From assembly GCF_014647915.1 (NCBI RefSeq), contig NZ_BMQC01000006.1:124001-188000 (forward strand): a stretch of DNA of 64,000 nucleotides. The letters are read 5' to 3'. The stretch's first letter is position 1, and each line of letters opens with the position of its first letter. Positions 39,605-45,591 of the stretch are shown piece by piece. The stretch comes from Pilimelia terevasa (lineage in GTDB: Bacteria > Actinomycetota > Actinomycetes > Mycobacteriales > Micromonosporaceae). Made by a program: the position numbers and the translations under genes. Below the pieces are notes generated by a model, which made no database searches, was not told the DNA's origin, and saw nothing but the letters and a program-made list of their open reading frames with translations.

Positions 39605-40222
39605 GTGTCCGACCCGCTCCGCCGCGGTGCCGCGCGCACCGCGACCCTCGTCGCGCTGCCCGTGACCCTGCTCGCCGGCCTCGGCGTGCACCAGCTCCTG
39701 CGCCCGGCCGCCGAGCCGGCCGCGGTGCCGGCCGCCGCCGCCCCGACCCCCTCGGCGGTGCCGGACACCCCGGTGCCGATGGCCGCCCGCCCGCTGGCCG
39801 GCCGCGCGGCGGCACTGTGCCGCGACCTGCTCGCCCAGCTCCCCGCCCGCGCCCGCGACCTCCCGCGCCGCACCGTCACCGCCGGGCCGGCGCAGAACGC
39901 GGCGTACGGCGAGCCCCCGCTGACGCTGGCCTGCGGCACCCCGCCGGCGGTCTTCCCCGCCACCACGCAGCTCCTGCGCCTGGACGGCGTCTGCTGGTAC
40001 GGCCGCGGCACCCCCGCCGGCTCGGCGTGGACCACCGTCGACCGCGCCGTACCGGTCACGCTGACCGTCCCGCCGCCGGCCGACGGCGCCGCCCAGCGGG
40101 TCATCGACTTCTCCGCGCCGGTGGTGGGCGCGGTCCCCGCCGTCGCGGACCCGCCCCCGGGCTGCCGGGACCTGCCCCCGCCCGGCCACCCCGCCGGCAG
40201 TCCCCCGGCCCCGCCGGCCTGA
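39605..40222 (+). CDS. DUF3515 family exported/membrane protein
   Basis: A 205-residue protein with an N-terminal membrane helix (about 12-33), an Ala/Pro linker, and a domain with LCRDLLAQLPARARDLPRRT, TLACGTPPAVFP and LDGVCWYG. These conserved cysteines and the DLP motif mark DUF3515, an actinobacterial family near thiL and ddl with no known role. GTG 39605 directly follows the previous stop codon. Confidence 0.85.
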   Translation: MSDPLRRGAARTATLVALPVTLLAGLGVHQLLRPAAEPAAVPAAAAPTPSAVPDTPVPMAARPLAGRAAALCRDLLAQLPARARDLPRRTVTAGPAQNAAYGEPPLTLACGTPPAVFPATTQLLRLDGVCWYGRGTPAGSAWTTVDRAVPVTLTVPPPADGAAQRVIDFSAPVVGAVPAVADPPPGCRDLPPPGHPAGSPPAPPA

Positions 40223-40299: not shown

Positions 40300-42948
40300 T
40301 CAGCGGCAGGCGCGCGGCCGGAGCGGGCGCTCCTGGTAGTACGTCTGCTCCTCCACCTGCTGCACCGGGCTGCGCCACCCCTGGTCGATCTCGTACGGCA
40401 CGTCCGCGTCGGTGCGGAACGCCCGCTGGATGTTGCGGGCGCACAGCAGGGTCAGCCGCTTGCCGGTCGCCACGCCGCGGGCGTCGAAGCGGGTCAGCCC
40501 GGTCGTCGAGCGGTACGGGGTGGACAGTGCCCGGGCCTGCGCGTACACCTGCGCCGAGAACCCCGGCTGCGCGCGCCACCCGTCGGCGGTCAGCACGGTG
40601 ACGGCCTTGAGCAGCAGCCGGGTGGCGTCGTAGGCCAGCCCGACCCGCTCGCCCACCGGCCGGCCCGGCGTGCACAGCCCGAGGGTGGTGCGCACGTCCT
40701 CCAGGAAGCCGCCGCGCTCGGTGTCCGCGGCCTGCGCCAGCCGGTCGCAGTAGGCCAGCGCACCCTTGGAGACGTAGGCGACGGGCAGGTTCGCGGGGGC
40801 GCGCTCGCGCAGCCTGGCGTTCGCCATGTACCGGTTCACGGAGTCGTCGGCCAGCAGCACCGCCCGCCCGTTGCACCGGTCGGCCAGGGCCGCGGCGAAC
40901 GCCCCGAACTCGCTGTACCGGCCGCCGAAGAAGACCACGCCGTCGCGGTACCGGTCGGCGCAGTACGGCCGCAGGTCGGTGCCCGGCGTCCAGAAGGCGC
41001 TGTCGTAGTACGCCGCGCCGAACTTGGCCCGCACCCCGGCGGCGAGCGTCTGCACGTACAGGTCGCTCGCGGCACCCGCGAGTCCCTTGCTGCCGTAGGT
41101 GTAGAAGTTCATCACGCGCCTGCGGCCCAGGACCTTGGTCGCGTGGTCGTGCACGAGCCGGGCCTCGTCGATGTTGGGCGCCGAGAGCTGGAGGTACTGC
41201 CGCGCGCCGTCGGCGATGTCGTCGGCGGACAGCGTCGGCGCGACGGTCGGCAGGTGCGCCTCCGACAGCTTCCTGATGGCCTCCTTGGTGCCGGTGCGGC
41301 TCTCCACCAGGCCCACCACGCCGGCAACCGCCGGGTCCTGGCGGGCCAGGTCGCCGAGCATCGGGACGACGTCACCGGCGTGCGCCATCTCCTGGCCGGC
41401 GTTGGCCACGACGATCCGCAGCAGCGGCTGCGCCGGGTCGTTGGTGGCCAGCCCGTAGGCGCGGGCCTGCGCCGCCGCCATGCCCTGCAACTCCTCGCGC
41501 TCGGCGGCGAACGTCTCCTCGGTGGCCAGCGTCCCGGGCTTGGTCAGCGAGCCGAGGTAGACGAAGGTGACGTACGGCTGGTCGGGGCGCTGGTGCGCCG
41601 CCTCCCGGGCCAGCCGGTTGTTCTCAAAGATGATCTTCTCGGCCTCGCGCAGGCCGGCGTCCGCGGTGAAGAACTGGTCCGGGTGGTCGCTGTAGCCGAC
41701 GCACTCGCCGCCGATCAGCTTCGTGCGGACCGCCCCGTCGGTCACCAGGGTGAGGCAGCCGGCCTTGTAGGCCTGGTACGCGCGGTACAGCTCGGGGCTG
41801 TACCAGCCGGCGGTGCCGAGCAGGGCGGCCAGCACCACCAGCCCCACCGCGAGCGGGTGCGCCAGCACCGGCGGCCGCGGCGGGCGGATCTTCGGCAGGT
41901 CGTCGACCAGGTCGACCAGCCCGGGGTGCGGCCGGGCCATCGGCAGGTACCACCGGGTGTTGGCGCCGGCCCGGCTGTCCGCCGCCAGCCGGGTCCGCCA
42001 CGCCTCGTAGGCGCCCGCCGCGCCGCTGACCGGCACGCCCGTGGACTCGCCGGCCGGCACCCGGACCCGGCCGGCGATCACCAGCAGCGGATCGGTCTCC
42101 TCGGTGTCGTGCCGGATGGTGTTGATCAGCTCCAGCAGGGCGGCCCCGGCGGTACCGGCGGTCGCGTCCTCCAGCAGCGCCACCGGCGCCGCGGTGCGCC
42201 GCCACGCGGCCAGCCGCCAGGGCCGGCGCCGGTAGGCCACCCGCAGGTCCTGGAGCAGCGCGTGGACGAGGAGCCGGTCGAGCTTGGGCTGCATCGCCGG
42301 CTCGTGCCCGTGCCGGCCGAGGTGCCGGGCGAGGGCGAAGAAGCCCCCGGCCGGGCGCGGCGACGGGTACTGCTGCCGGACCGCCCAGCGGAACTCCCGG
42401 CCGAACCCGAGCAGCCGCCCCGTCACCAGCATCCGCATCAGCGGACCGGGCAGGACGGTCGCGGCCAGCCAGTACGAGAAGCCGATCCAGCCGCCGAGGG
42501 CCTGCGACGGCGCCCCCGGATCGCCGGTCTGCAGGTGCAGGTGCGCCCGGAGCTGCCGGTACAGGTGCCGCTGCTGCTGGTCGACCGGCACCTGGCGCAG
42601 GTCGAGGCCGACCAGCCAGTGCGCGAGCCGGTAGTGGCGCAGCCGCACCACGGGCAGGCCGAAGTCCTGGGCGAGGCCGCCGTACACCTCGTGCAGCAGG
42701 GCGCGCACGTCCGGCGCGTCGGGGACCACGACGTGCGGCACCTGGCGGCCGTCGGCGGCGAACAGGGGGCCGAGCCAGGCGGTCGCCGACCCGGCCTCGT
42801 CGTGGGTGCGCAGCGGGACCAGGGGCATGGGCCAGGCGCCGCGGCCGCGGCCGCCCAGCAACTGCCGCAGGAGCCGGACGAAGCCGACGGCGGCCGGGTA
42901 CTCGCGCATCGGCCCGCCGGCAGGCGACTCGGTCTGCTCCACGTGCAC
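40300..42948 (-). CDS. Transmembrane protein with periplasmic-binding (receptor) C-terminal domain
   Basis: An 882-residue protein in three parts. About 1-360 is intracellular, helical and Arg-rich, with no signal peptide; it resembles the ATPase-like front part of related actinobacterial proteins but shows no P-loop (GGRGRGAWPMPLVPL stands where one might be expected). One membrane helix follows (about 362-384, AVGLVVLAALLGTAGW). About 385-882 is an outside domain like branched-chain amino-acid binding proteins/type I periplasmic binding proteins: FVYLGSLTKPG, VVGLVESRTGTKEAIRKLSE, YLQLSAPNIDEARLV, YDATRLLLKAVTVL. GTG 42948 follows GGGGGAG. This looks like a one-protein receptor rather than an ABC transporter subunit, since no permease or ATPase gene is nearby. 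Ligand and output are unknown. Confidence 0.7.
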   Translation of the reverse strand: MHVEQTESPAGGPMREYPAAVGFVRLLRQLLGGRGRGAWPMPLVPLRTHDEAGSATAWLGPLFAADGRQVPHVVVPDAPDVRALLHEVYGGLAQDFGLPVVRLRHYRLAHWLVGLDLRQVPVDQQQRHLYRQLRAHLHLQTGDPGAPSQALGGWIGFSYWLAATVLPGPLMRMLVTGRLLGFGREFRWAVRQQYPSPRPAGGFFALARHLGRHGHEPAMQPKLDRLLVHALLQDLRVAYRRRPWRLAAWRRTAAPVALLEDATAGTAGAALLELINTIRHDTEETDPLLVIAGRVRVPAGESTGVPVSGAAGAYEAWRTRLAADSRAGANTRWYLPMARPHPGLVDLVDDLPKIRPPRPPVLAHPLAVGLVVLAALLGTAGWYSPELYRAYQAYKAGCLTLVTDGAVRTKLIGGECVGYSDHPDQFFTADAGLREAEKIIFENNRLAREAAHQRPDQPYVTFVYLGSLTKPGTLATEETFAAEREELQGMAAAQARAYGLATNDPAQPLLRIVVANAGQEMAHAGDVVPMLGDLARQDPAVAGVVGLVESRTGTKEAIRKLSEAHLPTVAPTLSADDIADGARQYLQLSAPNIDEARLVHDHATKVLGRRRVMNFYTYGSKGLAGAASDLYVQTLAAGVRAKFGAAYYDSAFWTPGTDLRPYCADRYRDGVVFFGGRYSEFGAFAAALADRCNGRAVLLADDSVNRYMANARLRERAPANLPVAYVSKGALAYCDRLAQAADTERGGFLEDVRTTLGLCTPGRPVGERVGLAYDATRLLLKAVTVLTADGWRAQPGFSAQVYAQARALSTPYRSTTGLTRFDARGVATGKRLTLLCARNIQRAFRTDADVPYEIDQGWRSPVQQVEEQTYYQERPLRPRACR

Positions 42949-43175
42949 GCGCGTCTCCCCCGCTGTCGGTGCCGACCGCAGGGGCGGTTGCCGACCGCGG
43001 GCGACGGCCAGGCCGCACCCTGTGTAACGACTCTGCCCGGGCCGGCGACGCGCCGGTACCCCGGCACGGGTGACCCGCAGCAGGGCCGGCCGGCCGGTCC
43101 CGCACGGATGCCGGACCCCGGCACCGTCGCGGATGTCAGGTTGCCGACACACCGCTCGACGCCCGCGCCCGGTGC

Positions 43176-43220: not shown

Positions 43221-44375
43221 ATGAAACGGCGAATTCTGACAGCGGCGCTTGTGGCCACGTCGATGCTGGTGCCGGCGGTGCCGTCCGCCGCGGCCGGCCG
43301 CGCCAGCGGCGCCGGGTGGCCGTCCACCGGCTTCGACGACTCCGCGTCCAGCTACAACCGGTACGAGACGCGGTTGACCGCCGCCACCGTGAACGGCCTG
43401 GAGGAGGGGCTCTCGCTGCCGCTGCCCCACCCCGACATGAGCTGTCAGGGCGGCGGCCGCCCCGTGCTCGCGGGCGGCCTGCTCTACGTACCCGACGGCA
43501 AGGGCCTGGGCGCCTACGACCCGCGCTCGGGCGACCGCCGCTGGTATGTCCCGCTGGACACCGACGACTTCGTCGGCCAGATCGACGTCGTGCAGGGCAG
43601 GCTCGTCCTCAGCCAGAGCTACTGCCGTTCGTTCAGCGACTCCTCGGGCACCGTGACGGTGTACGACGCGGCGACCGGGGCGAAGCAGTGGAGCCGGTAC
43701 CTCGACGTGCCCGTCAGGACAATGGTGGCCGGGGACGTGCTCGTCGCGGGCGGCGCGGAGTCGACCGACGCCGAGGAGGCGGCGGGCTTCCGCCTCGCCG
43801 ACGGCGAGGTGCTGTGGCAGCGGCACTGGCCGCTGCTCGGCCGCGTCCTGGTCAACGGCGCCGCGGCGGTCGGCACGCCCGAGGGCGACACTGATCTCGT
43901 CGACCCGGCCACCGGCCGCACCCTGCACACGGTCCCCGGAAGCTACGCGCCGGAGAATCTGGGCGCCGACCGCACCCTGACCCTGGAGAGCAACCGCAAC
44001 GTCACCACCGCCCGCGAGGCCGCCACGCGCCGGGTGCGGTGGCGGTCGAGCAGCGCACAGCGCATCGTCGCCCAGGCGGTGGGACCGCGGACCCTCCACC
44101 AGGTGGCGGAGCAGGAGCTGGTGGCTCTCGGCCTGGACGACGGCGCGCAGCGGTACCGCGTGCCGCTGGACGACCAGTACTACTCGATGGTCGGTGCCGG
44201 CGACCTGCTCTACCTCGTCGGGTTGGCGAAGATCCAGGTGCGCCGCGCCGACACCGGCGCACCCGTGGCCGACCTGCCCATCCCCGACGACGGAAGCGTG
44301 GTCGTCGCCGACGGCGACGTCTACCTCAACACAGACCGCACGCTGACCCAGTGGCGGCTGCCGGCGCGGCGGTAG
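43221..44375 (+). CDS. Secreted PQQ-like beta-propeller protein
   Basis: A 384-residue exported protein. The signal peptide ends near PSAAAG (about 25). The rest consists of repeated propeller blades with the motifs LYVPDGKGLGAYDPRSGDRR, VTVYDAATGAKQWSRYL, VLWQRHWP and VDPATGRTLHTVPG, typical of PQQ-/WD-like repeats. Cofactor-binding residues of true quinoproteins are not evident, so binding or scaffold roles are more likely. GGGGAGA lies two bases before ATG 43221. It converges on ddl with 24 bases between. Confidence 0.8.
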   Translation: MKRRILTAALVATSMLVPAVPSAAAGRASGAGWPSTGFDDSASSYNRYETRLTAATVNGLEEGLSLPLPHPDMSCQGGGRPVLAGGLLYVPDGKGLGAYDPRSGDRRWYVPLDTDDFVGQIDVVQGRLVLSQSYCRSFSDSSGTVTVYDAATGAKQWSRYLDVPVRTMVAGDVLVAGGAESTDAEEAAGFRLADGEVLWQRHWPLLGRVLVNGAAAVGTPEGDTDLVDPATGRTLHTVPGSYAPENLGADRTLTLESNRNVTTAREAATRRVRWRSSSAQRIVAQAVGPRTLHQVAEQELVALGLDDGAQRYRVPLDDQYYSMVGAGDLLYLVGLAKIQVRRADTGAPVADLPIPDDGSVVVADGDVYLNTDRTLTQWRLPARR

Positions 44376-44399: not shown

Positions 44400-45521
44400 T
44401 CAGCGCAGGCCGGTGCCGCGGGCGAGCGCCGTGTGCACGAGCCGCGCCACCAGCTTCGGGTACTCCAGGCCGGCGGCAGCCCACATGCGCGGGAACATCG
44501 AGGTGGGGGTGAAGCCGGGCATGGTGTTGACCTCGTTGAGCAGGACCTCGCCGGCGTCGGTGACGAAGAAGTCGACCCGGGCCAGGCCGGCGCAGTCCAG
44601 CGCGGTGAACGCCGTCCGGGCCAGCTCCTGGACCCGGGCGGTCACCGCCGCGCCCAGCCGGGCCGGGACGTCGTACTCGCAGGAGTCGTCGAGGTACTTG
44701 GCCTCGAAGTCGTAGAAGTCGTGGCCGGCCACCACCCGCACCTCGGCCAGCGGCGACGCCTCGGGTACCCCGCCGGACTCGCCCTCCAGGACGCCGCACT
44801 CGACCTCGCGGCCGGCGATCCCGGCCTCCACGATCACCTTCGGGTCCACGGCCCGCGCGTGGGCGACGGCGGCGTCCAGGTCGGCCCAGTCGGCGACCCG
44901 GCTGATCCCGTGCGAGGAGCCGGCCCGGCACGGCTTGACGAACACGGGCAGGCCCAGCCGCTGCCGGGTCGGCCCGTCCAGGGTGGCCGTACCGGGCCGC
45001 AGGACGGCGTACGGCCCGACCGGGATGCCGGCCTGCTGCGCCAGCCGCTTGGTGAACTCCTTGTCCATGGCCGCCGCCGAGGCCAGCACCCCCGAGCCGA
45101 CGTAGGGGAGGCCGGCCAGCTCCAGCAGGCCCTGGACCGTGCCGTCCTCGCCGTACGCCCCGTGCAGGACCGGGAACACCACGTCCACGCCGCCCAGCGC
45201 GGCGAACCCGCGCGCCGGGGCCACCACGCCGGGCCGGTCCGCCGGCTCCAGCCGCAGCGGGCCGTGGGCGGGGTCGCCGGGCAGGACCAGGGCCGGCCCC
45301 GAGTCGGCGGTGACCTCGGGGAGCCGCCGGTCGACGATGGCGAGCGGCGCGGTGTCCGCGGGCAGGACCCAGCGCCCGTCGCGGGCGATGCCGACGGGCA
45401 GTACGTCGAACTCGGCCGGGTCCAGCGCGGCGAGGATCCCGCCGGCGCTGACGCAGGAGATCGCGTGCTCGGTGCTGCGCCCGCCGAAGACGACGGCGAC
45501 GCGGATTCTGTCCTGGCTCAC
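44400..45521 (-). CDS. ddl: D-alanine--D-alanine ligase
   Basis: A 373-residue ATP-grasp enzyme making the D-Ala-D-Ala end of peptidoglycan precursors. Start [20 protein letters not shown], with the Glu for the first D-Ala. [51 protein letters not shown] and the omega-loop [12 protein letters not shown] correspond to D-Ala-specific ligases rather than the D-lactate type. The metal site is [21 protein letters not shown] 45521 is chosen; a frame extension to 45548 lacks conservation. It follows the PLP-enzyme gene in the order plsC-gpsA-PLP enzyme-ddl. Confidence 0.96.
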
Positions 45522-45591
45522 CCCGCCACCGTACTGGCCGGTCACCACGGCAGGCGCACGGCGTGGGCGCGCCCGCCGCGGCGCGCCGCGC

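Follow-up and report, generated by a model that had tools for sequence, protein, structure and literature searches.

A predicted single-pass receptor of Pilimelia terevasa with a Venus-flytrap domain outside and a degenerate P-loop NTPase inside

STAND proteins normally sense intracellular signals. In actinobacteria, the GlnH-GlnX-PknG system has a binding protein without a permease that controls a cytoplasmic regulator (PMC9769921; see also PMC6069109). A membrane-associated actinobacterial conflict system contains caspase proteins fused to a transmembrane (TM) helix and extracellular periplasmic-binding protein (PBP) domains (Kaur et al. 2020, PMC7159879). Inactive STAND (iSTAND) proteins are described in related conflict systems in the same paper. 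A literature search of partial coverage for TIR-, STAND- or kinase-PBP receptors built like the protein described here returned only PMC7159879 as relevant, for its brief mention of the TM-PBP–caspase proteins. The parts of the receptor are known already; their combination is new to the searched literature.

The window is the whole 64,000-nucleotide stretch of P. terevasa DNA that was analysed. The receptor gene and its likely ribosome-binding site are as follows.

40300-42948, minus strand: receptor coding sequence, 882 aa, with a GTG start at 42948, a stop at 40300 and an alternative ATG start at 42909
42955-42961, minus strand: likely ribosome-binding site GGGGGAG, 6 nt before the GTG at 42948, identified by inspection

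This ORF has a strong coding score and its homologues are under purifying selection, so 40300-42948 is not a chance ORF. Searches of Pfam, NCBIfam, PADLOC and PDB sequences with the 882-aa protein alone gave nothing usable or convincing. A search for related loci with this single sequence gave no match, and only family profiles worked.

The outer half and the membrane helix are located at the following positions.

40303-41760, minus strand: predicted extracellular class I periplasmic-binding (Venus-flytrap) domain, residues 397-882 (AF2 and VIA-align; Peripla_BP_6 in homologues)
41800-41856, minus strand: single TM helix, residues 365-383 (AF2 helix at 365-382; homologue hydropathy; an Arg/His-rich stretch lies just N-terminal to it in homologues)

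The AF2 model of residues 397-882, built with 26 sequences, aligns to LivK (3td9) over 339 residues at 2.9 A with a Z of 33.1. The Z is 27 against AmiC and about 27 against mGlu ectodomains. Homologues match Peripla_BP_6 (1e-7) and ANF_receptor (2e-6), and a wider profile of the binding domain matches LivJ-type structures with an E of 8e-16. As modelled, the outer half has a binding fold of the amino-acid type, like that of LivK/LivJ, and from this we infer that the outer domain would sense a ligand.

No N-terminal signal peptide was found in the 882-aa protein by inspection. The outer half contains eight cysteines and the inner half none; over the homologue set the density is 15.9 per 1000 residues outside and 1.2 inside. 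Six of the eight outer-domain cysteines are conserved, and C398, C416, C663, and C692 are invariant in the homologue set. This distribution, together with the Arg-rich segment that precedes the helix in homologues, points to a topology with the N-terminus inside and the C-terminus outside. The sequence-only reading had proposed a protein lacking a signal peptide, with one central membrane helix and an extracellular domain of about 500 residues resembling amino-acid-binding proteins. All of this is borne out, the helix being the single hydrophobic segment of the protein and the domain being the LivK-like residues 397-882.

The inner half contains three features of note.

41959-42897, minus strand: predicted cytoplasmic degenerate P-loop NTPase (STAND/AAA-like), residues 18-330 (hhalign and AF2)
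42751-42828, minus strand: lost Walker A site, residues 41-66, reading MPLVPLRTHDEAGSATAWLGPLFAAD, where relatives read LPIVILYGPGGSGKTTVL (profile alignment)
42166-42183, minus strand: Walker B relict, residues 256-261, reading VALLED, where active relatives read LLLLDD or LVLLDN (profile alignment)

The Walker A motif (GxxxxGK[ST]) was found nowhere in the 882-aa protein. Aligned by hhalign to the profile of relatives that have a Walker A, the inner-domain profile matches end to end over 270 columns (99.4%, E 9.4e-22). In this register MPLVPLRTHDEAGSATAWL of the 882-aa protein lies under LPIVILYGPGGSGKTTVLDE of the relatives, VALLED lies under LLLLDD, and the Walker B strand and the strand after it are in register. 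As a specificity control, the inner-domain profile was compared with the binding-domain profile and gave 0.2%. Among the distant matches of the inner-domain profile are proteins with an intact P-loop, reading GPRGSGKS (L171), GMQGIGKS (L172), GPGGSGKT (L173), and GPPGSGKT (L174). Pfam places these four NTPases among AAA_16, AAA_22, NPHP3_N, and NB-ARC-like families.

An AF2 model of the inner domain predicted alone has a pLDDT of 78 and a pTM of 0.81 and is mostly helical. Foldseek returned no significant match with this model, so the claim for the inner-domain fold is based on the profile match and VIA-align. In a second look with VIA-align, the best PDB matches were ORC and other AAA+ proteins (Z 9.0, 8.4, and 8.2) and RdrA (Z 8.3). 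At these middling Z values, the likeness of the model to the AAA+/ORC fold is supportive only. The Foldseek result and the helical model are what would be expected if the inner half were an unrelated helical domain and its NTPase likeness an artefact of the profiles. That reading is very improbable given the 270-column match with the Walker B and following strands in register and the low score of the control. It also sits poorly with the approximately 25 loci, described below, in which homologous NTPase genes adjoin homologous TM-binding-protein genes.

The profile evidence indicates that the inner half is homologous to STAND/AAA-like P-loop NTPases, in ancestry and irrespective of activity, and that its P-loop has been lost. 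The sequence-only reading had noted the missing Walker A in the N-terminal half and had suggested a degenerate NTPase-like inner domain, and both the profile match and the predicted AAA+/ORC-like fold agree with it. It had also named, as a result that would count against it, an N-terminal half that proved to be a known enzyme; this half is not a known active enzyme, and the structure prediction that it recommended gave the AAA+/ORC matches at Z 8-9. Because the Walker A loop is gone, the inner domain should be catalytically dead, and no ATP hydrolysis is expected. An unrelated nucleotide site might conceivably have taken the place of the lost P-loop. The first acid of Walker B is D in 79 of the 109 fused rows of the alignment, and the 882-aa protein reads VALLED. 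Over 15 non-overlapping pairs, the inner domain has a median dN/dS of 0.18 and the outer domain one of 0.19, the pairs being of homologues, as the window copy itself has no close enough partner. By this measure, the inner domain is under constraint as strong as that on the sensor and is not decaying.

Matches are carried by 68 of the 201 genomes of the family. The genera with relatives include Micromonospora, Plantactinospora, Umezawaea, Streptomyces, Actinoplanes, Actinokineospora, and Amycolatopsis. The host genome has five copies of the receptor architecture (contigs 3, 6, 7, 9, and 25). Weak profile matches (E about 1e-6 to 1e-19, mostly frames of about 400 aa) were regarded as ordinary binding proteins and excluded from the census.

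The relatives exist in a split and a fused form. The split form, present at about 25 loci (including L048, L049, L050, L052, L171, L172, and L174), consists of two adjacent genes on the same strand, a soluble NTPase followed by a single-TM binding-protein gene. The two frames overlap or stand within about 100 bases of each other. The NTPase genes of split relatives continue for about 300 residues beyond the NTPase domain. In the tree set, Walker A is present in 19 of the 26 split loci and absent from the other seven, and is absent from 106 of the 107 single-chain (fused) forms; since the census was seeded with profiles of the receptor family and a single genus supplies many of the loci, these counts describe the sample and not independent events. 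The single fused form that keeps Walker A is L173, which matches the 882-aa protein with an E of 2e-13 in the binding domain and 8e-4 in the NTPase part. At the column of the P-loop lysine, nearly all fused rows have a gap or another residue, and 20 of the 33 other rows have K. Walker A strings in two other fused proteins (L169, AVSRRGKS; L234, APLPPGKT) lie away from the P-loop position and were judged to be chance occurrences.

At one split locus (L050:8917-14312, plus strand), a single NTPase gene precedes a tandem pair of TM-binding-protein genes. At L213 and L215 a second binding-protein gene stands behind the first.

A tree of 156 binding domains was constructed with FastTree and rooted at the midpoint. 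In this tree the split forms make up a clade (support 1.0) nested among fused forms. Repeated loss of Walker A is the more plausible history, we infer, compared with its regain.

In other single chains, profile search places known domains at the inner position. These are TIR (L219 and L231), TIR with NB-ARC/AAA_16 (L239), TIR with a Ser/Thr kinase (L243 and L245), a Ser/Thr kinase (L246 and L267), and DUF4062 (L269 and L270). A 19-member clade (support 1.0) that otherwise holds pseudo-NTPase forms encloses two TIR forms, the TIR-STAND form, and one kinase form. This use of the same position by known output domains is the best evidence that the protein would be a signalling receptor with the inner domain as its output or docking module. 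The domain swaps, together with the split two-gene form and its active-looking NTPase, go beyond what the sequence-only reading contained.

Several of these chains have features of their own. The two TIR forms (L219:1126-3537, minus strand, TIR_2 2.7e-34; L231:3439-6099, plus strand, TIR_2 5.4e-34) are single ORFs with one TM helix and a related binding domain. Their layout is that of a Toll-like receptor, in a bacterium. Their TIR stretch S..YL.S.Y.QTEW may contain the catalytic glutamate of TIR NADases. The kinase–TM–binding-domain fusions lie at L243:2320-5826 (plus strand), L245:1147-4191 (minus strand), L246:1030-3936 (minus strand), and L267:469-3069 (plus strand), and in L243 and L245 the TIR domain precedes the kinase. 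The DUF4062 domain is fused to a TM helix and binding domain in L269:3370-6030 and L270:2035-6030 (both plus strand). In L045, L046, and L047, six or seven N-terminal TM helices replace the NTPase domain and are followed by the binding domain, for a total length of about 700-770 aa.

The genes on either side of the receptor are as follows.

39605-40222, plus strand: DUF3515 gene, a neighbour of ddl in relatives (Pfam DUF3515, 1.1e-19)
43221-44375, plus strand: divergent secreted PQQ-propeller gene (Pfam PQQ_2, 3.1e-16)
44400-45548, minus strand: ddl, D-Ala-D-Ala ligase (Pfam Dala_Dala_lig_C, 7.3e-66)

The gene order in relatives is thiL, AsnC-like, DUF3515, ddl. DUF3515 directly adjoins ddl in seven of them (L196, L197, L200, L202, L204, L208, and L210), and in the window the two are separated by the receptor and PQQ-propeller genes, as the earlier claim of an interrupted DUF3515-ddl order required. 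The PQQ-propeller gene, divergent from the receptor, is a possible co-acquired partner. The six scanned neighbours match the DUF3515, PQQ_2, AIRS, GNAT acetyltransferase, ddl, and Cys/Met PLP enzyme families. The search for a conserved partner gene turned up none beyond genus-level synteny.

Branched-chain amino-acid transport binding proteins have this same outer fold, and the receptor could on this ground be a transport component, a membrane-anchored binding protein that supplies a permease encoded at another place and has a degenerate inner domain for energising or regulation. The earlier claim that no permease or ABC ATPase lies nearby extends to the homologues, as the neighbourhood survey it called for found no Liv-type permease or LivF/LivG-type ATPase adjoining the receptor or its relatives (0 of 64 loci, in a scan by motif and TM count rather than by profile). 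The sole ABC matches in these loci are exporter-type fusion genes, at two of them. A permease gene standing consistently next to homologues, which the sequence-only reading had named as a second result that would count against it, was not seen. The likeness of the inner domain is to STAND/AAA NTPases rather than to ABC ATPases, and kinase and TIR domains fill the same position in relatives. We therefore consider a transport role unlikely, with only a small chance of being correct.

The 882-aa protein is probably a single-pass ligand-sensing signalling receptor with a pseudo-NTPase inside. Beside its relatives with a live ATPase, TIR domain or kinase, it looks like one of several forms of a bacterial signalling-receptor family that has been little described. 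In the mechanism proposed, the outer clam-shell would close on a small polar molecule; to judge from the fold, an amino acid or a related compound is the likeliest. Closure would alter the pairing or oligomeric state of the receptor, and this change would pass through the one membrane helix to the inner domain. The pseudo-NTPase would then probably serve as a platform on which a partner protein docks or assembles under the control of the ligand, a role suggested because purifying selection retains a domain without a P-loop.

Two uses of such a signalling receptor can be considered, and the evidence does not decide between them. By analogy with GlnH-GlnX-PknG, the receptor may be a nutrient sensor through which the external amino-acid level sets internal metabolism. 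That precedent is actinobacterial (PMC9769921), the outer fold is of the amino-acid type, and glutamate synthase-like genes stand near many of the Micromonospora homologues, possibly by synteny only. GlnX is, however, a separate protein with four TM segments, unlike the 882-aa build, and the glutamate synthase neighbourhood occurs in a single genus only and is missing from the window. Nutrient sensing is a serious candidate that we hold at somewhat under an even chance. In L080, L088, L091, and other Micromonospora loci, genes for glutamate synthase-like large and small subunits occur a few genes upstream of the receptor. These genes and a gene of about 840 aa (c1) recur near the Micromonospora homologues; the genes in between are variable, neither feature occurs in other genera, and both were rejected as partners and taken as synteny. 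The glutamate synthase-like neighbourhood is probably synteny, and glutamate is a candidate ligand.

The receptor may instead serve in conflict or immunity, sensing a molecule from a phage, a competitor or a damaged cell wall and triggering defence or cell death, with the pseudo-NTPase as a scaffold for an effector encoded elsewhere. The replacement of the inner domain by TIR and STAND domains in relatives would fit this use, as would the caspase fusions and iSTAND proteins of Kaur et al. 2020 (PMC7159879). The 882-aa protein has no effector domain by Pfam and no convincing PADLOC match, no effector gene was seen among the scanned neighbours, and the kinase-bearing relatives fit nutrient sensing equally well. 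This use is put forward tentatively.

On a wider scale, the relatives might constitute a receptor superfamily built like Toll-like and metabotropic receptors, with a Venus-flytrap ectodomain, one helix, and a module on the cytoplasmic side that can be exchanged (STAND-type NTPase, pseudo-NTPase, TIR, TIR-kinase, kinase, or DUF4062). The pseudo-NTPase form would then be a ligand-gated scaffold, and a signal from outside the cell would make it nucleate a signalling complex of an immune or developmental type. This proposal is speculative, and we would not expect it to hold in full.

The arrangement matters as a STAND-like module wired to an extracellular small-molecule sensor, in one chain or in one operon. 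Active-looking, dead, and swapped (TIR and kinase) versions all occur in actinobacteria and provide a natural series on how an outside ligand controls an NTPase-type switch inside. The same series bears on the need for hydrolysis and on what such bacteria listen for. The question of the ligand is open to a direct binding screen because the outer fold is well studied and usually soluble.

The receptor can be compared with known systems domain by domain. Its outer domain has the class I, or Venus-flytrap, fold common to LivJ/LivK, AmiC, and the metabotropic glutamate receptor ectodomain. Unlike the Venus-flytrap receptors, it has a single TM helix, a pseudo-NTPase inside, and no GPCR or transporter partner. 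The binding proteins of HAAT-type ABC importers also have this fold (Z 33 to LivK) but are exported separately by a signal peptide or lipobox, whereas in the 882-aa protein the binding domain comes behind 360 residues of N-terminal domain and is tethered by an internal TM helix.

The AAA_16, AAA_22, and NB-ARC-like NTPases of the split relatives are homologous to its inner domain. Compared with active STAND and AAA_16-type NTPases, the 882-aa protein lacks Walker A and has an extracellular sensor across a membrane helix. The STAND clades (AP-ATPase, NACHT, and SWACOS) carry a winged helix and C-terminal repeats, whereas the 882-aa protein has neither, its TM helix coming almost immediately after the NTPase-like domain. 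The iSTAND proteins have lost their NTPase motifs, as has the inner domain, a likeness drawn by description only. The iSTAND ternary system has linked MoxR and vWA genes, and neither is among the six scanned neighbours of the receptor.

The caspase-TM-PBP conflict protein (System 4) has a cytoplasmic signalling domain, a TM helix, and an extracellular PBP in one actinobacterial chain, as does the 882-aa protein, the PBP domains being likened by description only. The 882-aa protein has no caspase-superfamily or cNMP cyclase domain (Pfam gives no family) and has the pseudo-NTPase instead. In GlnH-GlnX-PknG of Corynebacterium and Mycobacterium, a binding protein serves sensing rather than transport and acts through a membrane protein on the cytoplasm, much as is proposed for the receptor. 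That system is composed of three separate proteins, with four TM segments in GlnX (PMC9769921), whereas the receptor described here is one chain with one TM helix.
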